From positions 51,504,707-51,568,706 of the forward strand of contig CM069874.1 of NCBI GenBank assembly GCA_036172665.1: a stretch of 64,000 bases of DNA, written 5' to 3'. Of the stretch, positions 810 through 43,355 are shown one piece after another (positions within the stretch are counted from its first letter, which is position 1; each line of letters opens with the position of its first letter). This DNA is from Prosopocoilus inquinatus. Taxonomy: Eukaryota; Arthropoda; Insecta; Coleoptera; Lucanidae. The translations under genes were made by a program, and so were the position numbers. The notes beneath the pieces are model-generated. The model did not search any database, was not told where the DNA came from, and worked only from the letters and a program-made list of their open reading frames with translations.

Positions 810-2717
810 TCTGATTTTATTTATAAAAAGATGTTTTCACATATTTGTTTAGAAAACACTGACGTTTGTTTAAAAACATATAATGGAAATTTAATAAAAC
901 CGTTAGGACAAATAAATGTTACAATGAAATGTAATAATAAGAGAGAAAATGTAAGATTGTTAGTAATAGAAGGAGGTTGTGAAAGGCCGTTATTTGGCAG
1001 AGATTTGTTGGAGATTTTTGAAGTAAGTGTAAACTTAGATAAGTTAGAATTGGGAAAAGATGAGTGTATTCGAAAATTAGTTGGAGAATATAACGATGTT
1101 TTTAGAAATAAGTTAGGAACATATAAGTACGAAAAAGTTGAGTTAAAGTTAAAAGAGGAGGTAACAGGTATTTTTAGAAAACCAATGCCTATGCCTTATG
1201 CAATTAAAGATAAGGTAGACAAAGAGCTGGACCATTTAGAAAAGGAAGGTATTATTACAAAAGTGGATAATAGTAGTTGGGGGACACCTTTAGTTCCTGT
1301 TGTAAAGAGCGATGGTTCAATTCGTTTATGTGCGAATTATAAATTGACAGTTAACAAGTATTTAGAAGACTGTAATCATCCATTGCCTAGAGTAGAAGAT
1401 TTATTTTATGCATTACAAGGGGGAGTAGAATTTACAAAGTTAGATTTAACTTGTGCTTATAATCAGCTGGAGTTAAGTGAAAGTAGTAGAGAGCTGTTGG
1501 CTTGGAGTACGCATAAAGGAATTTATAAGGTAAATAGATTTCCTTATGGCACTAAGCCAGCATGTCAGATTTTTCAAAATATTATTGAAAAGACACTTTT
1601 GGGGACAAAAGGAGTTGTGAATTTCATGGATGATATTTTGATAACTGGGAAAGATTTTGGTAGTCATGTAGAAAATCTAAGAGAGGTGCTGCAGAGATTA
1701 AGAAAAGCGGGATTTACAGTAAATTTAAGAAAATGTGAATTTTTTAAAGATAATGTTAAATATTTAGGACATATTATTGATAAGCAAGGTTTAAAGAAAG
1801 ATGCAGAGAAAGTAAAAGCAATAGTAGAAATGAGAAGACCCGAGAATGTAACAGAGGTTAGAGTATTTTTGGGAATGGTAAATTATTATGCAAAGTTTAT
1901 AGAAAATATCAGTCAAATTTTGAGTCCTTTGTACAAGTTACTACAGAAGGATGAAAGATTTAAGTGGGATACTAAATGTGAAGTTGCATTTGAAAGTATA
2001 AAAAGGGAATTAACCTCAGATGTAGTACTAATGCACTTTAATCTAGATTTGCCGATTAAATTAGTATGCGATGCTAGTAAAATAGGAATAGCATGTGTTT
2101 TGTTGCATAAATTAGAGGATGAATCAGAGCGTCCAATAGGTTATGCCAGCCGTAGATTAACTAAAGCTGAATTCAATTATTCAATGATACAAAAAGAAGC
2201 TCTAGCAGTTTATTGGGGTGTTAAGAAATTTTCACAATTTATAATTGGTCGAAAATTTGAATTAGTGACGGATCATAAGAATTTACGTTACGAATTTACA
2301 CTTTTTGGGGAAGAGAAAAGTTTACCGGAAGTAACAGCAGGCAGAATTCAAAGATGGGCTCTGTATTTATCAGGATTTAATTATAGATTGAGATATACAA
2401 AAGGTACACTAAATGAAGCAGATGGACTTTCTAGACTGCCAATACATTCTTCGAGTAAAGATGATGTGGAATTTGAAAATTTCAACTTTTTAAATACGAT
2501 TCCAGTAAATATTGAAAAAGTTAAAACGGAAACTAGAAAAGATCAGGTTTTGGGACAAATAAAATATTTTATTGAAAATGGATGGCCAGAAAAAATTAGT
2601 TCAGCAAGGGAATCGGAGCTTAAAAGATACGTGAACAGAAAGAAAGAATTATATGTTCATAATAATGTAATAATGTGGGGTTTTCGATTAGTTATGCCTT
2701 TTAATTTGAGGAAATAA
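810..2717 (+). pseudogene. Gypsy-1 protease remainder, reverse transcriptase and RNase H
   Basis: This continues in the gag frame after the TAG at 807-809. RT motifs are clear: the Trp-Gly-Thr-Pro segment near 1280, the Leu-Asp-Leu catalytic aspartate segment near 1440, and the active-site box at 1623-1634. That box reads Phe-Met-Asp-Asp rather than the usual Tyr-x-Asp-Asp. RNase H follows, with a Cys-Asp-Ala-Ser motif near 2067 and Thr-Asp-His near 2270. RT and RNase H copy the element RNA into DNA inside the particle. A TAA at 2715-2717 separates this part from the integrase in the same frame. Confidence 0.93.
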
Positions 2718-3458
2718 CTATTAGACCAGCTTCATTCAACACATTTAGGAATGAGTAAAATGAAATCTACTGCAAGGTCATATTTTTGGTGGCCTGGTTT
2801 AGATTTAGAGATTGAGAAGATATGCAGAAGCTGTAAGATTTGTATGGTAAGGGAACCAGAACCACAAAAGAGTGTTTTAAAATTGTGGCCAGAAGCTACA
2901 AAACCCTTTGAGAGAATACATATTGATTTTCTAGGACCATTAAAAGGACAAATGTATTTGTTAGTCACCGATGCATATTCCAAATGGCCCGAAATATTTG
3001 AAATGTCAATTACAAACACAAGCAAGACACTGGACAAATTGAGAGAATGTTTCTCAAGGTTTGGGTTACCAGAAACTATAATTTCGGATAACGGTCCGCA
3101 GTTTGCATCAGAGGAGTTTAAAATTTTCTGTATTAGAAATGGTATAACGCATAAAACGAGTCCACCATACCATCCACAAAGTAACGGGGCTGCAGAGAAT
3201 GCTGTAAAGTCATTTAAAAATGGTTTTATGAAATGCTTAACGGATAAAGGAAATTTGGGAGTGACTAAGGATACTTTGGTGCAAAGGTACTTATTTACGT
3301 ACCGAAATACAGTACATAGTGCAACAGGAGAGAAGCCCAGTTCGAGAATGTTTAAAAGACCCATAAGAACAAATTTTGATTTGCTGAAAGATAGTCCGAG
3401 TATGGAAAGATACAGACTACAGAAACAAAGACAGATGGAGGAGAGGAAGAATTGTTAA
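2718..3458 (+). pseudogene. Gypsy-1 integrase
   Basis: The frame continues from RNase H past the TAA at 2715-2717. The N-terminal HHCC zinc domain has histidines at 2733-2735 and 2742-2744, followed by a Cys-x2-Cys pair near 2831-2842. The catalytic DDE residues are Asp 2925-2927, Asp 3087-3089 and Glu 3195-3197, each in the expected gypsy context. Integrase inserts the cDNA into the genome. The frame ends at 3456-3458 because of a frameshift just upstream; the remainder continues in the next frame. Confidence 0.92.
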
Positions 3459-3882
3459 ACTTTTAAGTGACAGAGTATATCTAATAAAGGTGGAAGGAGA
3501 AGAGTCAGTATGGAAAAGACATGTAGATCAGTTGAAGAAAGCAAATGAGTCTCAAGAAAGTGAAAAGAAGATAGATAGAGAAATAGTAATGAGGAGGATA
3601 TTTGATGAAGAAAAGAATAGAGAAAGGAGTATTAATATTAGTGTAATAGGCGAAGGCACAAAGAACGAAGAGGGAAATAAAGCAGCAGTAGTAGTAGAAG
3701 AAAGAAAAGAAGATTCAGAAAAGGAAAACAAAGAGGAGCCTAAGAAGAAATTACAGGAAACTGAAACAAGCCGAAGACTGGAGACTGAGAGTAGCTTGGA
3801 AAGATCAAGTAATACGGTAATAGGTTTAGCAAGAGAAAGAGGGAGAAGAACGATTAAGAAACCGCAAAGATTAGATCTTTAG
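3459..3882 (+). pseudogene. Gypsy-1 integrase C-terminal tail
   Basis: After the frameshift near 3430-3456 the pol frame continues through a typical integrase C-terminal segment ending in a Trp-Lys-Arg-His-Val-Asp-Gln-Leu motif near 3511-3537. A low-complexity Glu/Lys/Arg-rich tail follows to the stop at 3880-3882. The tail resembles the charged, poorly conserved ends of many gypsy polyproteins. No env-like signal peptide or transmembrane segment follows. Confidence 0.8.
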
Positions 3883-4104: not shown

Positions 4105-5495
4105 GCCTTATCGGCTACGATATCACACTTTTGAGCACCGATATTGTCATTATATAATTCCACTGTCTTTGGAGTATCTGCGACCAGTTCTGCAAGAAGT
4201 CTTCTCAAGTAAATAGCTTCTTTTGAAGCTTCGCTCAGCGCCATTGTACTCGGCCTCTGTCGAAGAAAGAGCTACTGTTCTCTGTTTCTTCGATTCCCAT
4301 GAGATTACTCCGCAATTAATCGTGAACGCAAATCCAGTAAATGATCTTCTATCATCGAGACATGCACCCCAGTTTGCATCTACGAATCCTTACAGCCCGT
4401 CTCCGCTAATGTTGAAGATGATACCTACATCTGCAGTGCCCTTTAAATATCTAAGCACATGTTTCGCGGCTGTCCAATGACTTTTTCCAAAATTGTCGTT
4501 GAACTGGCATAACAAGCTAACTGCATGTGAAATATCTGGCCTAGTCGCTACTGATAAGTACATCAGGACTCCAATCAATTCCCTGTAAGGTGGTTTTGGA
4601 CCGTCCTCTTCTGACCAAACGTCCGACTTTGATAGTTTCGCACCGGCATCAATTGGTGTGGATAATGGATTGCATGTCGACATTCCAAAGCGTTCTAGGA
4701 TGTCTTTGATGTATGTTTCTTGATTCATTGTAATTCCGTGTCTATTCCGGGAAAAACAAATACCTAGGCAGTAATTTACTTCACCTAAATCATGAATCAC
4801 GAAAACTTTCCACGTCAAGATGCTCCGAATCTGTCAATTCTCTCCGAACTTCTAGACAAGACTAATATATCATCTACATAGACAACTATTATAAAAAGAT
4901 TGTTTTCCTTGTCTTTAACATACACACTTGGATCGCTCTTTGTCGGAACTGCGCCGATATTTCTGAGCTCTCGATCCAAGCGCTTGTTCCAACAGCGTCC
5001 GGATTGTTTTAAACCGTATAATGATTTCTTGACTAGACAAACTTTGTTTCCAGCAGACAAGTCATGAAGCATGTTCTTCGCCTTGGTCACTAATTCTGGA
5101 GATCCGTATTTCTTTTGTACAATATACTCAAGTACATCTGCCGTATAATTGGGAACCTCCATAAAAATCTCTTCATCAACAAATCCGTTTCGGTACGCGG
5201 TAGTTACATCAAATTGTCTCACGTGCATAAGTTCACAAGCGGCAATTGCCATCGCTAACCTAACTGAACTTAGCCGCGCCATAGGAGCAAACGTTTCATG
5301 AAAATCCAATCCTGGACGCTGTCAGAAGTCTCGCGCTAACACTCGCGCTTTTCTTTTGGGAACCGTACTTGTTTCGAAGCACAATCCTACTACCTATAGT
5401 AGCCCGACCCTTCGGTCGTTCGATGATGTCCCATGTGTTTTTTTATGAATGGACTCGTATTCGCTTGCTTCCACTCTTGTGACTCAGAACCGCTC
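4105..5495 (-). pseudogene. Copia-1 fragment: reverse transcriptase and RNase H
   Basis: Read on the minus strand from 5495 down, this is the Ty1/copia RT: a degraded N-terminal part (5310-5495), then 4815-5309 with the Phe-His-Glu-Thr-Phe-Ala-Pro motif, Leu-Tyr-Gly-Leu-Lys-Gln and the Tyr-Val-Asp-Asp active site. The connection domain and start of RNase H lie in 4390-4818 (His-Asp-Leu-Gly, then Ala-Thr-Arg-Pro-Asp). The RNase H Ser-Thr-Glu-Ala-Glu-Tyr motif is near 4245-4265, followed by a one-base frameshift. Homology fades near 4105. No LTRs, gag or integrase are attached. It is a decayed fragment unrelated to Copia-2 at 39-43.5 kb apart from superfamily. Confidence 0.88.
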
Positions 5496-6642: not shown

Positions 6643-6994
6643 ACTTGCTTTTTTCTTTACTGATCGTTGGTTATGCTACTAGCAGTATTGGATTAATAAA
6701 TTTGTTAGTTTTGTTCTAAATGTCTTATCATTTAAGATCTTAATAATATATGGAACTTCTCGTAAAATGATAGTTTGTGACAAGGGATTTCTAGTGAAAA
6801 ACCATTTCGTGTATTATAACTTGGTATGAATTATGAATGAACTGTTTTCCACCGAAGTGCATTTTCTCTCGCATAATTTAACAATTGAATAATAAATATT
6901 CCTGTTATTGTCATTACTTTCCATTTCTTTGCTACATGATCCCCAAACTATTGTGGCATATGAAATCAGCGAATGGAAATTTGAAAAATAATAC
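6643..6994 (-). pseudogene. LINE-B ORF2 C-terminal fragment
   Basis: On the minus strand this encodes the end of ORF2, starting with the segment around Ser-Tyr-Ala-Thr-Ile-Val-Trp-Gly and ending near 6665. The piece joins 8106-8286 in frame once the gypsy insertion at 6995-8105 and one ATAC copy are discounted. Several stops are present. Confidence 0.75.
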
Positions 6995-7060
6995 TGTGGC
7001 GCGCCACCCAGCTCACTACGTCAAACTGAAGGCGTCAAGAAGTCGGTTCGTTATACGTCA
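6995..7060 (+). repeat. Gypsy-2 truncated 5' LTR
   Basis: These 66 bases match the first 66 of the 3' LTR at 7772-7837 with a single A/G difference, then identity stops abruptly. The breakpoint marks the left side of the internal deletion. The near identity suggests a recent insertion. Confidence 0.9.
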
Positions 7061-7915
7061 AGGTCCCCCATGGCAAACCCAAAGTAATCCACTTCAACCG
7101 GATAGCCCCTTACCATGGAGAAGCAGATGAAGGGACGGTACAAAGGGCGCAAGTTTCCGAAGTGAACTTCGAAACCTTCATGTCTCATCACGCCGAAGGA
7201 AGCAAGGGACGGTTTGGAGTGACCACGGAGAAGCAACAAGATCTCTTTAAAGTGCCACTGGAGTACAGTCTGGCTCACTGCGTAGCATAAGACCTGAAAA
7301 TTTGGCCAAACCGAGGAGCTCCGAAGACAGCATCCCATGGTAAGCAAGAGTCTGCAGATCATCGATTCGACGGCAGATCAGAGGCGCCACGTGCATTATT
7401 TAGTCACTAAGAAGACATCAAGCGGTAAACCTGATTATTAAAGTATGTGGAGAGCTCTATATAACCTGAGGAGACAGCTAATAGAGAACCACCAGATGAA
7501 GTTAGCCATCCCCAAATTGGGCTGCGGATTGGATGGACTAGACTGGAGAGTAATTCGAAGCATGCTGGAAGTCATCTTCCACAGAACGGGAATTGAAGTC
7601 CTAGTCTGCAGCCACCACCCACAGGCAACAGTCAGCAACAGCAAAACCGTAGACTGCTACTTCTTCCAGACGGGAAGTTGCAAGAATGGGCCAGCTTGTA
7701 GATTCCGACACCCTCCTTCAAGACTATCACCAGGAACATTTCGAGACGAAACGTTTTTAAGAAGGGGGCAGTGTGGCGCGCCACCCAGCTCACTACGTCA
7801 AACTGAAGGCGTCAAGAAGTCGGTTCGTTATGCGTCATTGGCTGCCCCGCCACCGGGGCCTATACCGAACAAACTAGACTTTTCCAGCGATGGAACAAAC
7901 GAGAAGGCAGCGTAG
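7060..7915 (+). pseudogene. Gypsy-2 integrase C-terminus, TARG1-like macrodomain and CCCH zinc finger
   Basis: From 7060 the frame reads the conserved gypsy integrase end (Lys-Val-Ile-His-Phe-Asn-Arg, then Ala-Pro-Tyr-His, 7081-7113). After a linker it runs straight into a macrodomain-like start (Leu-Phe...Tyr-Ser-Leu-Ala-His-Cys-Val, 7231-7284), then a TAA at 7288-7290. A small deletion and frame change near 7297 remove the loop that normally carries Gly-Ala-Gly. The next frame continues (Lys-Phe-Gly...Tyr-Leu-Val-Thr-Lys-Lys), hits a TAA at 7439-7441, then gives the C-terminal motif Pro-Lys-Leu-Gly-Cys-Gly-Leu-Asp (about 7511-7534). This order fits the OARD1/TARG1 family, which removes ADP-ribose from proteins. 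A CCCH finger (C-x7-C-x5-C-x3-H) lies at 7655-7711. The frame ends at 7913-7915, inside the 3' LTR. This copy cannot encode an active enzyme. Confidence 0.8.
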
Positions 7916-8105
7916 AATATAAAATCGGCCGGGGTGGACTAAGGAGTCAGTCGAATTATAAATAGCGATCGTCGAAGTTAAGATTTAGTGTGTAAATAAA
8001 TTGTTACAAATAAATTAGATTGTAAGCATTAATAAATTACGGTTAAGTTTTTACCCAGTGTTTTATTCGTTTAAATAAATTAATTTAAACCCTAGAAACG
8101 TAACA
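7772..8105 (+). repeat. Gypsy-2 3' LTR
   Basis: 334 bp, starting TGTGGCGCGCCA and ending CGTAACA, preceded by a polypurine tract at 7759-7771. It has a TATAAAA box at 7918-7924 and several AATAAA signals from about 7996 on, consistent with U3-R-U5. It ends immediately before the second ATAC of the target duplication. Confidence 0.9.
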
Positions 8106-8286
8106 ATACGTTCTTAATACATTGGAATTTACATATCTTTTGAGATACTTCAGTGTAAAACAAATTGGGGTTAAGTTATTACATAAAATATCAATATGTT
8201 TTACCCATCGGTACTTACTGTGGATGACAACACCCAATAATTTGGTATCGTCGCTTTGTTTAATAGTATTATTATGATAACGGATG
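8106..8286 (-). pseudogene. LINE-B ORF2 fragment between Gypsy-2 and the Penelope insertion
   Basis: On the minus strand this encodes the region downstream of the RT fingers/palm (Lys-Leu-Leu-Gly-Val-Val-Ile, then Leu-Lys-Tyr-Leu-Lys-Arg). The segment is bounded by ATAC (8106-8109) on the gypsy side and by the copy of the Penelope target duplication at 8269-8286 on the other. A frameshift relative to the piece at 12164-12952 lies close to the Penelope insertion site. Confidence 0.75.
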
Positions 8287-8368
8287 TTAATCACAAAGCA
8301 ACACAAAACCTGTGGCTGTAATCCAAATAAATAGTGAGAAAACCCCTCGACCACATTAATTCACTGAA

Positions 8369-8411
8369 AGCGAATACGTATTTCGGTAACGAAGTTACCA
8401 TCTTCAGCGCT
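8369..8411 (-). ncRNA. PLE-1 hammerhead ribozyme motif, left arm
   Basis: This is the inverted copy of the motif at 12083-12125. On the minus strand it reads stem I AGCG, core CTGAAGA, stem II GGTAAC-TTC-GTTACC, GAAA, a short self-complementary stem III TACGTA, an ATT cleavage triplet and stem I CGCT. Hammerhead motifs are known in the pseudo-LTRs of Penelope-like elements. There is one extra base between the core and stem II, so activity is not certain. Confidence 0.65.
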
Positions 8412-8527
8412 AAACTGATATTAAACTTTAAAACAACAAATAAACTAAACTAGACTAGCCGCACTCCCCCCCTCACTTTCTTTGTACCGTATTATGCATG
8501 CAAAGCAAACCGGGATTCTTCGAAAAT

Positions 8528-10210
8528 CTAAAGGTCGAAGAGGCAAGAAGCGGTCGGCCCGGACTTCTCAAAATTCATTAATCTATTCCAATTTTTGTGA
8601 ATCTCCAAGCTTTCGAAAGAATCTAGGTTTGTTTTGTTATTAATTTGTTTGATTAAATCTATTTTATTTACCGAATGATTGTTTTCAAGCATGTGTAAGG
8701 CAACACTGGATTTATCAAAGCGTTTGTATTTTAAATGAGCCAAGTGTTCTTTGAATCTAATTTTTAAGGATCTTTTTGTTTGCCCTACATAAATTTGATC
8801 ACAATTTTTACAACTAATTTTATATATACCTGATTTATCCTCCGAATCTACTTTATCTTTTGGATTTCCCAGCAACGATTTTAAGCTGTTATTGCTGGTG
8901 TAAACTATTCTTAAACCTAATTTTTTAAAAATTGTATTCAACCCTTTAGTATATTGAGGATAAAACGGCATTTTTACAATTTTCTTATAATCTACCTCAC
9001 CTATTTTGTCAGATTTTAGTGTGGTTATTTTATTAATCTCTAATTTTTGTTTTTGTTTTCTAATAATGTTATAGATTACATCGGGTTGGTAACCATTGTA
9101 CGTGGCGATTTTAATAATTTCTTGAAGTTCTTTACTATAATTAACAGTTGATAAAGGGTATGTCAGCATCCTATGCACTAAGAAATTTAAGGCCGCTAAT
9201 TTATATTGTTTGCAATGATTTGAATCCGCGGGAATGAATCTATTAACATTAGTAGATTTCCTATAAACGTTAAATTCTAATTTATTACTATTTCTAGTTA
9301 CTAATGTGTCTAAAAAGGGTAGTTTATTGTTAGTTTCAATTTCATAGGTAAATTTGATGGTGGTGAATTTAGAGTTTAAACTTTTAAGGAATTCCTCTAT
9401 TGAACATTTACTTTGGTCAAAAACACAAAATATATCATCGACGTATCTCACCCAGATTTTAGGGAAATAATCTAAAGAGGCTTTAAGTTCCGTTTCAAAT
9501 TTACCCATAAACAGATTTGCCATAAACGGTGACAAGCTATTTCCCATGGCTGCCCCTTCCAATTGTTGGTAAAACTCGTTGTTAAATTTAAAGAAATTTT
9601 GATTCATGCATAAACTAGTGAGTTTTATTAATTCATCCACTTCCTCCTTATCGAAGCTATTCTTTGATAAAAGTTCTTTCAGGTAATCTAAGGTGGTTTT
9701 TACAGGTATACTAGGAAATAACGAAGTGACATCGAAGGATACTAAAATTTCGTTTGGTTTTATTTCTAGATTTTTTAATTTTTCAATAAATTCTAATGAA
9801 TTTTTAACAGAAAAATCGGGTAATTTAACTGGAAGGTTATTAAATTTATCACTTAACCACCTCGATAATGAAGAAGTCGGTGAATTTATACAGGATACAA
9901 TGGGTCTCATGCTGTTACCTGGTTTGTGTATTTTTGGTAAACAATACAATCTAGGGATTATTGGGTTAGATGTTGTTAATTTGTAACGTAAAGCGTTCGT
10001 AATCGCTTTACTGCAGTCTAACATGGTTTTTTTGGTCTCCGTAATCATTTTAGGTAAAGGATCTTTTTTAACTTTCTGGTATTGACCTTGATTAAGCATG
10101 CCATTTACTCTGTCGAAATAATCTTCTTTATCTAAAATGACCACAGTATTGCCTTTGTCCACCTTGAGATAAAAACAATCTTTTTCTCTAAGTGTTTTAA
10201 TGATTTTCAA
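8528..10210 (-). CDS. PLE-1 left copy: Penelope reverse transcriptase with GIY-YIG endonuclease
   Basis: The open frame of 560 codons has the same amino-acid sequence as the right-arm copy. RT motifs in order: Phe-Asp-Val-Thr-Ser-Leu-Phe (first catalytic Asp), Ala-Met-Gly-Asn-Ser-Leu-Ser-Pro, and the Tyr-Val-Asp-Asp active site. The C-terminus is a GIY-YIG nuclease (Gly-Ile-Tyr, a Cys-x2-Cys pair, then Tyr-Val-Gly-Gln-Thr). Both activities serve target-primed retrotransposition. The first Met (10208-10210) is internal to the family; the N-terminal segment is lost at the palindrome centre, so this is a 5'-truncated but otherwise intact ORF with no visible promoter. Confidence 0.93.
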   Translation of the reverse strand: MKIIKTLREKDCFYLKVDKGNTVVILDKEDYFDRVNGMLNQGQYQKVKKDPLPKMITETKKTMLDCSKAITNALRYKLTTSNPIIPRLYCLPKIHKPGNSMRPIVSCINSPTSSLSRWLSDKFNNLPVKLPDFSVKNSLEFIEKLKNLEIKPNEILVSFDVTSLFPSIPVKTTLDYLKELLSKNSFDKEEVDELIKLTSLCMNQNFFKFNNEFYQQLEGAAMGNSLSPFMANLFMGKFETELKASLDYFPKIWVRYVDDIFCVFDQSKCSIEEFLKSLNSKFTTIKFTYEIETNNKLPFLDTLVTRNSNKLEFNVYRKSTNVNRFIPADSNHCKQYKLAALNFLVHRMLTYPLSTVNYSKELQEIIKIATYNGYQPDVIYNIIRKQKQKLEINKITTLKSDKIGEVDYKKIVKMPFYPQYTKGLNTIFKKLGLRIVYTSNNSLKSLLGNPKDKVDSEDKSGIYKISCKNCDQIYVGQTKRSLKIRFKEHLAHLKYKRFDKSSVALHMLENNHSVNKIDLIKQINNKTNLDSFESLEIHKNWNRLMNFEKSGPTASCLFDL

Positions 10211-11966
10211 ATTTTTAACCGCGTGTAAAATTCAAATTTCCGAAAACAAAATTCAGTCCTCCCCCAAAAAACAAGATAAAAATTTGAAAATCATTAAAAC
10301 ACTTAGAGAAAAAGATTGTTTTTATCTCAAGGTGGACAAAGGCAATACTGTGGTCATTTTAGATAAAGAAGATTATTTCGACAGAGTAAATGGCATGCTT
10401 AATCAAGGTCAATACCAGAAAGTTAAAAAAGATCCTTTACCTAAAATGATTACGGAGACCAAAAAAACCATGTTAGACTGCAGTAAAGCGATTACGAACG
10501 CTTTACGTTACAAATTAACAACATCTAACCCAATAATCCCTAGATTGTATTGTTTACCAAAAATACACAAACCAGGTAACAGCATGAGACCCATTGTATC
10601 CTGTATAAATTCACCGACTTCTTCATTATCGAGGTGGTTAAGTGATAAATTTAATAACCTTCCAGTTAAATTACCCGATTTTTCTGTTAAAAATTCATTA
10701 GAATTTATTGAAAAATTAAAAAATCTAGAAATAAAACCAAACGAAATTTTAGTATCCTTCGATGTCACTTCGTTATTTCCTAGTATACCTGTAAAAACCA
10801 CCTTAGATTACCTGAAAGAACTTTTATCAAAGAATAGCTTCGATAAGGAGGAAGTGGATGAATTAATAAAACTCACTAGTTTATGCATGAATCAAAATTT
10901 CTTTAAATTTAACAACGAGTTTTACCAACAATTGGAAGGGGCAGCCATGGGAAATAGCTTGTCACCGTTTATGGCAAATCTGTTTATGGGTAAATTTGAA
11001 ACGGAACTTAAAGCCTCTTTAGATTATTTCCCTAAAATCTGGGTGAGATACGTCGATGATATATTTTGTGTTTTTGACCAAAGTAAATGTTCAATAGAGG
11101 AATTCCTTAAAAGTTTAAACTCTAAATTCACCACCATCAAATTTACCTATGAAATTGAAACTAACAATAAACTACCCTTTTTAGACACATTAGTAACTAG
11201 AAATAGTAATAAATTAGAATTTAACGTTTATAGGAAATCTACTAATGTTAATAGATTCATTCCCGCGGATTCAAATCATTGCAAACAATATAAATTAGCG
11301 GCCTTAAATTTCTTAGTGCATAGGATGCTGACATACCCTTTATCAACTGTTAATTATAGTAAAGAACTTCAAGAAATTATTAAAATCGCCACGTACAATG
11401 GTTACCAACCCGATGTAATCTATAACATTATTAGAAAACAAAAACAAAAATTAGAGATTAATAAAATAACCACACTAAAATCTGACAAAATAGGTGAGGT
11501 AGATTATAAGAAAATTGTAAAAATGCCGTTTTATCCTCAATATACTAAAGGGTTGAATACAATTTTTAAAAAATTAGGTTTAAGAATAGTTTACACCAGC
11601 AATAACAGCTTAAAATCGTTGCTGGGAAATCCAAAAGATAAAGTAGATTCGGAGGATAAATCAGGTATATATAAAATTAGTTGTAAAAATTGTGATCAAA
11701 TTTATGTAGGGCAAACAAAAAGATCCTTAAAAATTAGATTCAAAGAACACTTGGCTCATTTAAAATACAAACGCTTTGATAAATCCAGTGTTGCCTTACA
11801 CATGCTTGAAAACAATCATTCGGTAAATAAAATAGATTTAATCAAACAAATTAATAACAAAACAAACCTAGATTCTTTCGAAAGCTTGGAGATTCACAAA
11901 AATTGGAATAGATTAATGAATTTTGAGAAGTCCGGGCCGACCGCTTCTTGCCTCTTCGACCTTTAG
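10200..11966 (+). CDS. PLE-1 right copy: Penelope reverse transcriptase with GIY-YIG endonuclease
   Basis: 588 codons from an ATG at 10200. The first 28 residues are encoded by the left-arm edge and the 60-bp spacer and may not be native. The rest equals the left copy. The RT active site Tyr-Val-Asp-Asp is at residues 284-287 (11049-11060). GIY-YIG begins at residue 489, with Cys495 and Cys498 as the zinc-binding pair of Penelope enzymes, Tyr-Val-Gly at 502-504, and conserved Arg and His around 513-517. No stop or frameshift interrupts it, which with arm identity indicates a very recent insertion. It overlaps the left-arm ORF by 11 bp on the opposite strand. Confidence 0.93.
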   Translation: MIFKFLTACKIQISENKIQSSPKKQDKNLKIIKTLREKDCFYLKVDKGNTVVILDKEDYFDRVNGMLNQGQYQKVKKDPLPKMITETKKTMLDCSKAITNALRYKLTTSNPIIPRLYCLPKIHKPGNSMRPIVSCINSPTSSLSRWLSDKFNNLPVKLPDFSVKNSLEFIEKLKNLEIKPNEILVSFDVTSLFPSIPVKTTLDYLKELLSKNSFDKEEVDELIKLTSLCMNQNFFKFNNEFYQQLEGAAMGNSLSPFMANLFMGKFETELKASLDYFPKIWVRYVDDIFCVFDQSKCSIEEFLKSLNSKFTTIKFTYEIETNNKLPFLDTLVTRNSNKLEFNVYRKSTNVNRFIPADSNHCKQYKLAALNFLVHRMLTYPLSTVNYSKELQEIIKIATYNGYQPDVIYNIIRKQKQKLEINKITTLKSDKIGEVDYKKIVKMPFYPQYTKGLNTIFKKLGLRIVYTSNNSLKSLLGNPKDKVDSEDKSGIYKISCKNCDQIYVGQTKRSLKIRFKEHLAHLKYKRFDKSSVALHMLENNHSVNKIDLIKQINNKTNLDSFESLEIHKNWNRLMNFEKSGPTASCLFDL

Positions 11967-12082
11967 ATTTTCGAAGAATCCCGGTTTGCTTTGCATGCAT
12001 AATACGGTACAAAGAAAATGAGGGGGGGAGTGCGGCTAGTCTAGTTTAGTTTATTTGTTGTTTTAAAGTTTAATATCAGTTT

Positions 12083-12125
12083 AGCGCTGAAGATGGTAAC
12101 TTCGTTACCGAAATACGTATTCGCT
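12083..12125 (+). ncRNA. PLE-1 hammerhead ribozyme motif, right arm
   Basis: Stem I AGCG (12083-12086) pairs with CGCT (12122-12125). The core CTGAAGA is at 12087-12093 (the fifth base is not conserved in hammerheads). Stem II GGTAAC/GTTACC closes on a TTC loop, then GAAA and a palindromic TACGTA stem III, with ATT as the NUH cleavage triplet. It sits downstream of the ORF, where pseudo-LTR hammerheads of Penelope elements occur. The extra T between core and stem II is unusual. Short stem III motifs of this type often act as dimers. Confidence 0.65.
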
Positions 12126-12163
12126 TTCAGTGAATTAATGTGGTCGAGGGGTTTTCTCACTAT

Positions 12164-12952
12164 TTATTATGATAACGGATGAGTAAACAGTTCTTCCTTT
12201 ACCGTAAAGTTAATGAAAATAGATTTATTAGTATTCAGAACTAATTCATTTGTAGCGTAATATGTTCCAGCTAGCGTTAAAACAGATTTTGCATGTGAAG
12301 AAGTATGGTTGGTACCAAAATCATGAATCAGTAAAGACGTATCATCAACAAAAATTGTAGCGTTAGTGAAAGGGAAGTCATTTATGTATAATATATACAA
12401 AAGAGGTCCTAAAACAGATCCCTGTGGGATACCTCGGTTTAATTTTGACATTTCCGATTTAGAGCTTTTAATTGCAACACAGTGAGTTCTATTATGAAGG
12501 TAACTGTAAAACTATGCGTATAATTTTTCTAATAGTGTGCAATGACTTACCAGATCAAATGTTTTGCTGATATTCAAAAAGAGGCCTAGGCTAACCTCAC
12601 CTTTGTCCATGTACGAATACAACTCTTCCAAAAATGTTAATATTGAAAATGTAGTACAACGTTCTTTACGAAAACCAAATTGGTCCACGTTCCAAATTTT
12701 ATGCTTTTCAGGAAAGAATTTTTATTGCTAACAATTTTCTCGATTATTTTGAAAAATGAGCTGAACAAAGAAATTGATCTGTAGTTTTCAATTAACAGTT
12801 TAGATCCTTTTTTATGTACTGGTTTAATTGCTGCTATCTTGAGTTTTTCTGGAAATGTTCCCTGGCTAAATGAATTGTTTACTATCGTGGTAAATGGTGT
12901 TATAATTTCTAGTATACAGCGTTTCAATATAAAGGAGCTGACATTGTCATAT
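12164..12952 (-). pseudogene. LINE-B reverse transcriptase fragment
   Basis: Minus-strand RT: 12637-12927 holds the upstream RT segment (Lys-Pro-Val-His-Lys-Lys-Gly, then Asn-Tyr-Arg-Ser-Ile-Ser), and 12167-12451 holds Gly-Ile-Pro-Gln-Gly-Ser, Leu-Gly-Pro-Leu-Leu and the active-site box Phe-Val-Asp-Asp. The stretch between them is out of frame with stops. The left boundary is the Penelope target duplication (12164-12181); the right boundary is ATAT (12949-12952) of the solo LTR. Confidence 0.82.
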
Positions 12953-39311: not shown

Positions 39312-39551
39312 AAGACACTGAGTGACAAAGGTTGGTGATAAAAAGACTAAAGTTTAGTATGAAGAGTTTTTAAAGCTATTTCCGTTAAGTAAAAATTAAC
39401 TTTAAAAGCGATGGATGGTGACGTTATGAGAATTACAAAATTGAGAGGCGTTGATAATTGGGCGTCATAGAAATTTCAAGTGCGTGTAATTTTGAAGGCA
39501 GTCAGTGCATGAGATGTTGTTGTAGGCCAAGCAGTCAAGCCCAAATATGAT

Positions 39552-41204
39552 ATGAAAATTCATGCGACGGCTATGAAGTCCTATGAAAAGGAACTAGCAG
39601 ATAACATGGCCCAAAAAGTTATTGGAACATCAGTGGAAGAGCAACCGTTGCTTCATATATTAAACTGCGAAACGTCAAACGCAATGTGGGAAAAACTTCT
39701 ATCAGTTTATAAGCAAAAAAATGAGGCAAGCGTTCACATGTTGCAGCAGCAGTGGTACAAGATGAAAAAGAATGCTTCGTGTGATGTGGCTACGTACATT
39801 TCGCAACTAGAAGATCTTTCTCATCGGTTGAAGACTCAAGGTGAAAATATTCCAGAGTCAATGATTATTACGAAATTGTTAATGACACTGCCACCAGAAT
39901 ACAATCATTTCCTCAGTGCGTGGGAATCGACCCATCGGGATCAACAAACGTTGTCAAACTTAACTCCAAGGCTCATAATGGAAGAGAAACGTATGAATCT
40001 TCAAGAGAAACCTAATGGAAGTGCATTCCTGGCCGGTAAGCATCCCAGAAGCACGAACGAGAATGGTAAACCTCATTTTGACAAAGAAAGTCCACGAAAA
40101 GTGGGTAAGTGCTTTAAATGCAATAAGGAAGGTCATTGGGCCAGAGAAAGCAGGAATGCTAAATCAAGAAACCAAGTAGAGAATAAAACTCGATCAAAAG
40201 GTGACGCTTTTATTGGTGAAACATTCTCATCAATAGCACGTATCCACTTTGATAAATATTCCTGGTATTTAGATTCTGGCGCTACTGATGACATGTGCAG
40301 TCGGATTGAATGGTTTTTAAATTACAAACCATTTGAAAATGAACTTTCAGTTCGTATTGGTGACGGAAATTATATTTCGGCATATGGAACAGGCGACATA
40401 AACATATTAGCATTTGATGGAAAAAGATGGAACGAGAAACATTTGTCAAATGTTTTATATGTACCAAAAATCCAGTACAATCTCTTCTCATTAGGAGCTG
40501 CACTAGACAAGGGAATAACCTCCAAGTCGAATAAAACAATATGTCAGTTGTTTAAAGAAGAAATTGTCGTTGCAGGGGGAGTTCGTGAAGAGAAGCTTTA
40601 CAAAATGAAGTTTAAAGTTGTATTAGATGAAGACAGTAATATTCAAGCAAACGCATCTGTCAAATTGGAACTTCAAACTTGGCACAAAAAACTTGCACAT
40701 CAGAATTTTCAACATGTGAAACAGATTCTGAAGAGTAACGGAATTCCACTCAAGAATGAAGACACAAGTTTATGTGAGGATTGTATTGTTGGAAAAATTC
40801 ATAAATTACCTTTTCCAAAAGGTGATTCCAAAACAAAGAGAATTGGAGACCTCATCCACGCAGATTTATGTGGGCCTATGCAAGAAAGCTCTATAGGAGG
40901 TTCAAGGTATCATTTTATATTAAAAGACGATTATTCTCATTGGAGAACAATGTACTTTCAAAAACAAAAATCCGAAACATCTCGTTATCTTGAATACTTT
41001 ATACAAGCCAGCCAAAAGCAAATTCAGCCAGGAATAAAAACTATTCGAACAGATAATGGGCTGGAATTTGTAAATAATGAAGTACAAAAGATTACCCGAA
41101 GTTATGGAATAATGCATCAGAAAACAGTCGCTTATTGCCCTCAGCAGAATGGTTCAGCAGAACGAGAAAATAGAACGCTGGTGGAAATTGCAAGAACAGG
41201 ATGA
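39552..41204 (+). pseudogene. Copia-2 gag, protease and integrase
   Basis: 550 codons. Gag resembles the UBN2 family of copia capsids (Leu-Leu...Leu-Pro-Pro-Glu-Tyr). The zinc knuckle near 40110-40160 is C-x2-C-x4-H, with the last cysteine replaced by Ser. The protease motif is Leu-Asp-Ser-Gly-Ala-Thr near 40270. The pre-integrase zinc region (His...His...Cys-x2-Cys) is at about 40680-40790. Integrase Asp residues lie near 40860 and 41050, with Glu in Gly-Ser-Ala-Glu-Arg near 41160. A TGA at 41202-41204 ends the frame, which continues in phase from 41205. Confidence 0.9.
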
Positions 41205-41742
41205 CAGCTCCCACTTCATGCAAGTGGGATGCCAATTAGATTATGGGCTGAAGTTATTAATGCCGCAGTATATGTCTTTAATAGAACGGGTACAAGCACT
41301 ATTGAAGGAGTAACATCACATAAGTTATGGATAGGAAAGGACAGCGATATTACACGATTTAGGATTTTTGGTAAGCAAGCTTTTATTCATATTTCAAAAG
41401 CGGCAGAAACGGGATCCTAAGGCCGAGAAAGGTTTCTTCGTAGGTTACGACATTGAAACTAAGGGATACCGCATTTGGTTTCCTGATAGAAATACAATTA
41501 AAACACATAGGGATGTTATCTTCACTAATAAGTTGTGCAAAAATTGTCAGCCAGAAAATAAAAATGATGATGATAAACAAAATACAATTTTTGATTTATT
41601 CAAGAGTAATAATCAAGATCAGGAAGAAAACCGTGAAATAAACAAGCGAGAAGATCCGCACATATCGTTAGACGAAGAAATTGAAATAAACGAGGGAGAA
41701 GATTCAAGCATATTATTAGACGAAGAAAATAAAGAGCAATAA
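41205..41742 (+). pseudogene. Copia-2 integrase C-terminal region
   Basis: The same frame as gag-integrase runs after the TGA to a stop at 41418-41420. A frameshift near 41395 moves the reading to another frame that contains Gly-Phe-Phe-Val-Gly-Tyr, a typical copia integrase C-terminal motif, then an acidic linker with two similar blocks (Asp-Glu-Glu repeats). This ends at a TAA at 41740-41742, in phase with the RT that follows. Confidence 0.82.
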
Positions 41743-43355
41743 CATAAATGTAAAAAGCAACATGAAGAAATGAATCAGGTTCAACCTGAAATTCAAAACG
41801 AAAACCGGAACTTAAGAGACAGAACAAAGATTAAAAAATCAGAAAGATATGGTAATTGCTACATGAGTTCGACATTTGTAGCGAATCACTACGAACCAGT
41901 CTCATATCGGGATGCAATTAAATGTAAAAATTCTGTAAAATGGATGCAAGCCATGGCAGAAGAGATGGATTCGTTGAAATTGAATGAAACATGGATCTTG
42001 ACTGAGCCCCCCAAAAATCAAGAAGTAATTGATAACAAATGGACTTTTAAAGTTAAAAGAAATACAGATGGAAGCGTGAGTAGATTCAAAGCACGACTAG
42101 TTGCAAGAGGATTTCGACAACAACACGGAGTAGACTATAATGAAACTTTTAATCCTGTAGTTAGATGTGATTCAATAAGAATTATTTTGTCTGTAGCAGC
42201 TTACAGGGCTACGAAATTGAAGCAGTTCGATGTGAAAACTGCATTTTTATACAGCGAAATCGATGAAAATATTTATATGCAAAAACCTCAAGAGTTCGAG
42301 GACGGGACAATTTATGGTCTTACACGGGCATCAAGATTGTGGAACCAACATTGACTGGTGTTTTTAACAAATTTGGTTTAAAATCAACAGAAGCAGATCC
42401 CTGTGTTTTCGTCAACAGCGATGATAAGTCCTTGATTATATTAGCCATTCATGTTGATGATGGCCTGGTGGTATCTGAATCTCAGGAATTGATTGACATG
42501 GTACTGTCTGTATTAAAATCAGAATTCAACGTAACTACAGGTAACGTTAATCATTATCTTGGTTTGCAAATTGAACAGTTGCAAGATGGCTCTATATTTC
42601 TTCATCAAGAAGCATATCCACGAGCTGTGTTGGAACGGCACAATATGGAAAACGCCAATGCAGTTGCGATTCCTGCTGACCGGAACCATCAAATGTATTC
42701 TGCCATGCACACCAGTGGAGATGCAATAAATATAGTGAAGGAATTGGTAGTTTACTATACTTATCGATAGCAACGAGACCAGACATTACTTTTGCAGTAC
42801 ATAGTGCTAGTCAATATATTGAAAATGCAAAGAAGATACACTGAAATGCTGTATTCTCGAAATAATAATATTCAAGTGTCAGTTTTCAGCGATTCAGATT
42901 ACGTAGGTGATGTTGAAACCCGAAGATCAACCACAGGATTTGTTATAAAATTGGAAAGAGCTACCGTGGCATGGAATTCGCAAAAACAAAAAGTAGTTGC
43001 CCTATCAACAACCGAAGCAGAATATATGGCTTCATGTCAAGCTGTAAAAGAAATCATTTGGACGAAACCTTTACTCTGCAGTCTGATAAAATCGAAAGAT
43101 GTTTGCATTACTTTACATGTGGACAATCAAAGTGCGATACGCTTGATAAAAAGCCCAGAATTTCATAAGAGATCCAAACATATAGACGTAAAATATCATT
43201 TTGTCAGAGAAAAGTTTCACTCGGGAATTTTTAATTTGGAATATGTCAGTTCTCAAGATCAAGAAGCAGACATATTAACAAAAGCACTTGCCAGGAGCAA
43301 CTTTGAGAAACAACGAGAAATGTTAGGTGTTATCTCTGTTAAAAATCTGAAATAG
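41743..43355 (+). pseudogene. Copia-2 reverse transcriptase and RNase H
   Basis: RT begins in 41770-42354 (Trp-Met-Gln-Ala-Met, Lys-Ala-Arg-Leu-Val-Ala-Arg-Gly, Phe-Asp-Val-Lys-Thr-Ala-Phe-Leu). A deletion removes the segment before Ser-Arg-Leu-Trp-Asn. RT continues in another frame at 42339-42770 with the active site Val-Asp-Asp. RNase H follows at 42792-43355 (Ser-Asp-Ser-Asp-Tyr, Ser-Thr-Thr-Glu-Ala-Glu-Tyr, then Lys-His-Ile-Asp-Val), ending at the stop 43353-43355. Another deletion lies near 42835. Not functional. Confidence 0.9.

Follow-up and report, generated by a model that had tools for sequence, protein, structure and literature searches.

A putatively captured TARG1-like macrodomain behind the integrase tail of a Ty3/gypsy-type retrotransposon lineage in beetles

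A short, deleted retrotransposon copy

The window analyzed here is a 64,000-nt stretch of the genome of Prosopocoilus inquinatus (Coleoptera, Lucanidae; GenBank assembly GCA_036172665.1, contig CM069874.1, positions 51,504,707 to 51,568,706 of the forward strand). Positions 6995-8105 of this window almost certainly represent a short, dead and internally deleted copy of a Ty3/gypsy-type long terminal repeat (LTR) retrotransposon, whose coding end consists of an integrase tail, a linker, a macrodomain resembling that of TARG1 (OARD1) and a CCCH zinc finger. Its features, in window coordinates, are as follows.

6991-6994, no strand: left target-site duplication ATAC, by direct reading, the same as 8106-8109
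6995-7060, + strand: 5' LTR fragment (first 66 nt), 98% identical to 7772-7837
7072-7119, + strand: integrase C-terminal tail, GKPKVIHFNRIAPYHG, from a weak PF22938 match (E 0.1) and likeness to the related protein P0014
7120-7239, + strand: variable linker and conserved RFGVTxE segment ahead of the macrodomain, in the frame of the integrase tail, from alignments with relatives
7240-7287, + strand: macrodomain piece 1, DLF...SLAHCVA (TARG1 loop 1), followed by TAA at 7288
7298-7438, + strand: macrodomain piece 2, in another frame than piece 1, with the K84-equivalent codon at 7409-7411, followed by TAA at 7439
7442-7624, + strand: macrodomain piece 3, including PKLGCGLDGLDW, with the D125-equivalent codon at 7532-7534
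7655-7711, + strand: CCCH zinc finger, C-x7-C-x5-C-x3-H (Pfam zf-CCCH, E 5.9e-7)
7759-7771, + strand: polypurine tract AAGAAGGGGGCAG, abutting the 3' LTR on its upstream side, by sequence reading
7772-8105, + strand: 3' LTR of 334 nt with TG...CA ends, containing the stop of the 7442 frame (7913-7915)
8106-8109, no strand: right target-site duplication ATAC, by direct reading

The 66-nt direct repeat (6995-7060 and 7772-7837) corresponds to two LTR starts lying 777 nt apart. Together with the TG...CA LTR and the ATAC on both outer sides, it indicates a single insertion that lost most of its 5' LTR and interior. The 5' LTR start, the limits of the TG...CA LTR and the duplications had gone unremarked in the original prediction, which was made from the letters of the stretch alone. 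The TG...CA ends, the short target-site duplication and the tract directly before the 3' LTR are the traits of Ty3/gypsy LTR elements seen in this copy, while gag, protease, reverse transcriptase (RT), most of the integrase and the tRNA primer-binding site after the 5' LTR are missing from it. Other than the 66-nt fragment, the only match to the LTR or the interior within the window was a 22-nt inverted one inside the LTR itself (blastn, E 0.01), and the macrodomain pieces had none below E 1 elsewhere in the 64 kb.

The original prediction had an integrase motif (7081-7113) reading in frame into a single macrodomain segment, followed in the same frame by the CCCH finger and the 3' LTR. The first part was borne out, since one frame runs from 7072 to 7287, although the tail proper spans 7072-7119. 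The second part needed correction: the macrodomain is broken into three pieces by two stops, and it is the frame from 7442 that reaches the LTR. Compared with aligned relatives, about 12 loop residues were lost between pieces 1 and 2, with a change of frame. An intact protein cannot come from this copy. The open frame from 7442 passes the polypurine tract before entering the LTR, and the tract and LTR start encode LRRGQC in that frame.

Identity of the coded pieces

The 75-aa piece from the integrase tail to SLAHCVA was 57% identical to P0014 (E 5e-29), a 314-aa protein encoded on a 1,282-base contig, in which an integrase tail (PF22938, E 3.3e-13) is followed by the linker and the macrodomain. 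Macrodomain piece 2 matched P0028 of Pyrocoelia (53% identity, E 2e-13), and piece 3 with the CCCH finger matched P0018 (56% identity, E 6e-45). The piece 7442-7762 also matched human TARG1 (4j5r, E 1.6e-6), so the profile search suggested as a check on the macrodomain did not come back empty. The predicted CCCH finger behind it was likewise recovered by Pfam and matched fingers of CPSF subunit 4 in the Protein Data Bank (PDB); on these Pfam and PDB matches, a chance occurrence of the motif was rejected. Codons equivalent to K84 and D125 of TARG1 are both present in the window pieces. Four signature motifs (at 7072, 7406, 7511 and 7655, all on the + strand) occurred once each in the six frames of the window; these counts were made on the unshuffled window only, and the weight against chance rests on the profile and alignment E-values.

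Related proteins in beetles

With the 107-aa window piece as query, eight proteins were matched, and with the related protein P0003, 78. The named retroelement-type matches of the P0003 search came from Aromia moschata, Molorchus minor, Callosobruchus maculatus, Leptinotarsa decemlineata, Gonioctena quinquepunctata, Brassicogethes aeneus and Pyrocoelia pectoralis. Four of these seven are beetles by look-up (Cerambycidae, Chrysomelidae, Nitidulidae, Lampyridae), and the other three are beetles as well. Two cell-type proteins, from Anaeramoeba and Condylostylus, were also matched. Five of the seven species (Aromia, Molorchus, Callosobruchus, Leptinotarsa, Pyrocoelia) had a protein combining an integrase tail with the macrodomain; the Gonioctena and Brassicogethes proteins listed begin within the linker, and the complete domain order was seen in fewer than all seven. 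By table count, PF22938 was present in 11 of the 78 matches, including P0085, which ends ahead of the domain core. A complete CCCH motif was found in Aromia, Molorchus, Callosobruchus, Leptinotarsa and Gonioctena, and LRRGQC or a variant follows the finger in most relatives with a long C-terminus.

A long, X-padded query matched 203 long proteins, and the Aromia figures given here and below refer to the best 120 of these 203, all from Aromia. Seven marker motifs occurred in order in 96 of the 120. PF22938 was present in 115 (table count), the CCCH motif in 110, SLRRG in 105, SLRRGQC in 89 and a SAP-like N-terminal piece in 79 (local search). Most of these proteins were at least 97% identical to the Aromia query over the domain, which suggests a recent spread in Aromia, in a list ranked by likeness to that query. 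In a Pfam scan of eight long Aromia proteins, the integrase tail was found in all eight, the integrase zinc-binding domain in seven, and Gag and aspartic protease in subsets, while an integrase core appeared in P0201 only, below its cut-off. An N-terminal SAP domain preceding Gag was detected at E values of about 1e-8 in four of the eight and more weakly in a fifth (e.g., residues 8-43 of P0132).

Further proteins with the macrodomain joined to an integrase, which the original prediction had proposed to look for, were thus found, and at the level of sequence the family is spread in beetles, with the macrodomain as a recurrent cargo and not a one-off. By tblastn, no relative was found in viral contigs (four queries) or in bacterial and archaeal genome contigs (one query), and phage records gave 146 partial matches, each below 60% identity.

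Fold and phylogeny of the macrodomain

The structure model of the relative P0018 fits human TARG1 to 0.9 Å over 138 residues. The CCCH part of this model has low confidence (pLDDT about 50-65), and we therefore drew no inference from its structure. A viral macrodomain class was rejected on its lower fold rank. For the phylogeny, 24 hand-picked retroelement-type rows and window piece 3 were included and other such rows left out; the root served for drawing only. Rows were labeled as retroelement-type (among them P0002, P0014, P0018, P0019, P0030 and P0033) or cell-type from names, integrase, CCCH and tract motifs. The retroelement macrodomains, including window piece 3, which covers only 41% of the tree columns, formed one clade of 25 rows (support 100/99), and a single change accounted for this clade in 100% of 200 bootstrap trees. 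The clade was nested in a 36-row group (97/98) with human TARG1, the Condylostylus protein, the protist Anaeramoeba and eight further rows. One retroelement clade inside the TARG1 group fits one capture, and from these sequences we infer that a eukaryotic TARG1 gene was captured a single time. The predicted resemblance to TARG1 is thereby supported by sequence, by the fold of P0018 and by phylogeny.

Several differences separate this domain from TARG1 itself (OARD1, C6orf130, an ALC1-like hydrolase). It is part of a retroelement polyprotein, preceded by a helical segment and followed by a CCCH finger, whereas ALC1-like hydrolases are described as minimal and extension-free (PMC7050489). Nearly all retroelement rows also carry S35A, G41S and A42R or A42K relative to TARG1, and their GxG is usually AxG or SxG. 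The macrodomain of the antitoxin DarG is 20-22% identical and differs in being bacterial and acting on thymidine-linked ADP-ribose. RNA viruses are known to use macrodomains as tools for binding or erasing ADP-ribose. Like those of alphavirus nsP3, the coronavirus nsp3 X domain and rubella p150, the retroelement domain lies in the polyprotein of a replicating element that possibly faces host ADP-ribosylation.

Active-site residues and predicted function

Residue tallies were made over 42 listed retroelement rows (41 aligned) and 120 Aromia rows, with gaps excluded and near-copies included, so that the rows are not independent; the short row P0080, absent from the tree, was counted as retroelement-type. 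K84 was kept in 35/35 retroelement and 119/119 Aromia rows, and D125 in 32/32 and 118/119. In TARG1, K84 is the nucleophile and D125 resolves the lysyl intermediate (PMC6397177, PMC9967889). TARG1 is an RNA-binding protein that takes ADP-ribose off acidic residues as well as off DNA and RNA carrying it on a 5' or 3' phosphate (PMC8053099); it can also reverse thymidine-linked ADP-ribose (PMC8501950). Transposon-derived RNA is mentioned in connection with nucleic-acid ADP-ribosylation in a 2020 review (PMC7050489). Mono-ADP-ribosylation of KAP1 by SIRT6 silences L1 in mammals (PMC4695847), and in Drosophila, loss of PARP-1 mostly raises the expression of mobile elements (PMC7712786).

Building on the published work on TARG1, SIRT6 and PARP-1, we propose that the domain could act as an eraser riding on the integrase. 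Host transferases would put ADP-ribose on element proteins, on target chromatin, or on the phosphate ends of element DNA or RNA. The integrase-borne macrodomain of intact elements would then act as an ADP-ribosyl hydrolase that removes these marks and lets integration proceed, while the CCCH finger would serve to bind the element's RNA or cDNA; its resemblance to the CPSF subunit 4 fingers makes the predicted RNA binding plausible. The best explanation overall, which we regard as fairly probable, is that one captured TARG1 gene became, in intact elements, a predicted ADP-ribosyl hydrolase carried by the integrase. That this part of pol erases marks from the integration complex, or from the ends of its DNA, is a prediction we consider evenly poised. 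The fullest version, in which an insect LTR retrotransposon lineage encodes its own ADP-ribosyl hydrolase, obtained through a single TARG1 capture, and uses it to clear ADP-ribose of host origin from the integration complex or the DNA ends, is put forward tentatively and with slightly less confidence.

Several observations weigh against an active eraser in such a lineage. The expected conservation of ADP-ribose-binding residues held for the catalytic pair and broke down at several other positions. S35, a distal-ribose contact in TARG1 (PMC6397177), is replaced by alanine in all retroelement rows with a residue there (24/24 and 114/114). The first glycine of GxG is A, S or D in 25/32 retroelement rows and A in 119/119 Aromia rows, an AxG that also occurs in 15/41 cell-type rows. 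None of the retroelement rows with a residue at these positions keeps S35, G41 or A42 of TARG1. The strict pattern TKx(30,35)Px[IL]GxGxD (PMC6397177) was matched by 5/42 retroelement rows, as against 21/41 cell-type rows; many of the misses stem from the first glycine of GxG, and some retroelement rows are partial. The S35A and GxG changes could weaken catalysis. The finger is not present in every listed model, since Brassicogethes P0012 has serine for its first cysteine and the P0028 model of Pyrocoelia has no finger. Moreover, the RT of the other gypsy element in the window matched none of 204 related proteins, and Pfam found an RVT domain in none of the eight scanned long Aromia proteins; our guess is that gene models may skip repeat-masked stretches. 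Finally, ten further elements raised upon PARP-1 loss, nine of them of the gypsy superfamily, were below the statistical threshold, and the PARP-1 effect is possibly indirect (PMC7712786).

The same substitutions bear on a different role, the main rival of the eraser, in which the macrodomain would be a reader that binds ADP-ribosylated chromatin and steers integration, as is thought for the chromodomain of chromoviruses. A chromodomain at the integrase C-terminus is a hallmark of that group (PMC3605345). The present elements resemble chromoviruses in carrying an added module after the integrase tail and differ in having a macrodomain and CCCH finger where those have the chromodomain. No chromodomain was matched in ten proteins at E 0.01, nor in eight at 0.001; the Chromo_SEND1 match of P0004 is weak (E 0.032, short of the cut-off) and falls inside the macrodomain. 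Besides the shared location behind the integrase tail, S35A and the change of GxG to AxG or SxG could favor binding over turnover. A pure reader would have no need of the catalytic pair, yet of the rows that have a residue at the K84 and D125 positions, only a single one departs from TARG1, and we consider this role unlikely.

Conservation by segment

As a stand-in for a selection test, mean protein identity was compared by segment over 19 alignment rows, using pairs less than 85% identical overall and borders set by eye. Over the same 19 pairs (7 rows) with both segments, identity was 60% for the macrodomain and 57% for the integrase tail, the macrodomain equaling or exceeding the tail in 10 of the 19; on 13 of these pairs, the linker reached 35% and the CCCH finger 47%. 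By this measure of sequence, conservation of the macrodomain is on a par with that of the integrase tail. Over all available pairs, which form a different set for each segment, the means were 57% for the integrase tail (19 pairs), 56% for the macrodomain (169), 29% for the linker (35), 47% for the CCCH finger (150), 58% for the RYGVT segment (105) and 44% for the tract-coded motif (118), with no pairs for the stretch after that motif.

These values run counter to the idea that the domain is a passenger, acquired from the host by accident and carried along without function. The dead state of the window copy and the domain parts missing from some related gene models would suit a passenger; the macrodomain nevertheless matches the tail in conservation, with the linker lower, and its catalytic residues are retained across related proteins, so we judge this explanation improbable. 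Weaker still, to the point of being hardly credible, is a one-off fusion or gene-model artefact that sets a host OARD1 gene next to a gypsy remnant with no relation to it: many relatives are automatic gene models, and one bears a hydrolase name (P0031, below), but the window copy is bracketed by LTRs and duplications, the Aromia proteins that continue into SLRRGQC do so with a motif coded in the window by the tract and LTR start, and the artefact was rejected because five named species, as well as P0014, show the same join of tail and macrodomain.

In the literature searched, which left subscription papers, preprint servers and repeat databases outside its coverage and for the broader queries took in the top listings, we found no description of a macrodomain in an LTR retrotransposon. 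Within that coverage, this would be an undescribed lineage of Ty3/gypsy type whose captured module is newly seen. If the eraser prediction is true, the macrodomain would be a counter-defense, a sign that ADP-ribosylation controls retrotransposons in beetles, and would tie this modification to insect retrotransposon control in a directly testable way. Counting the CCCH finger and the SAP-type domain that many Aromia proteins have at the opposite end, the element would then possess three modules for nucleic acids or chromatin. For annotation, a public record gives the name ADP-ribose glycohydrolase OARD1-like to P0031 of Leptinotarsa decemlineata, which is of retroelement type and has an integrase tail, and retroelement copies may therefore be mistaken for host hydrolase genes.

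Other elements in the window

A second, distinct gypsy element occupies 810-3882; its RT, RNase H and integrase reading frames are open. Downstream of the copy described above lies a perfect 1,900-nt inverted repeat (8318-10217 and 10277-12176) with 59 nt between its arms, either a recent inverted insertion or an assembly artefact. A 567-aa open reading frame (ORF; 8528-10231, - strand) matches RVT_1 and GIY-YIG and belongs to what we take to be a Penelope-like element, and a 597-aa ORF (10173-11966, + strand) overlaps the other arm. The window also holds a copia-type element at 39513-42354, with gag, integrase and RVT_2 matches, and a copia-type RVT_2 remnant at 4815-5321.
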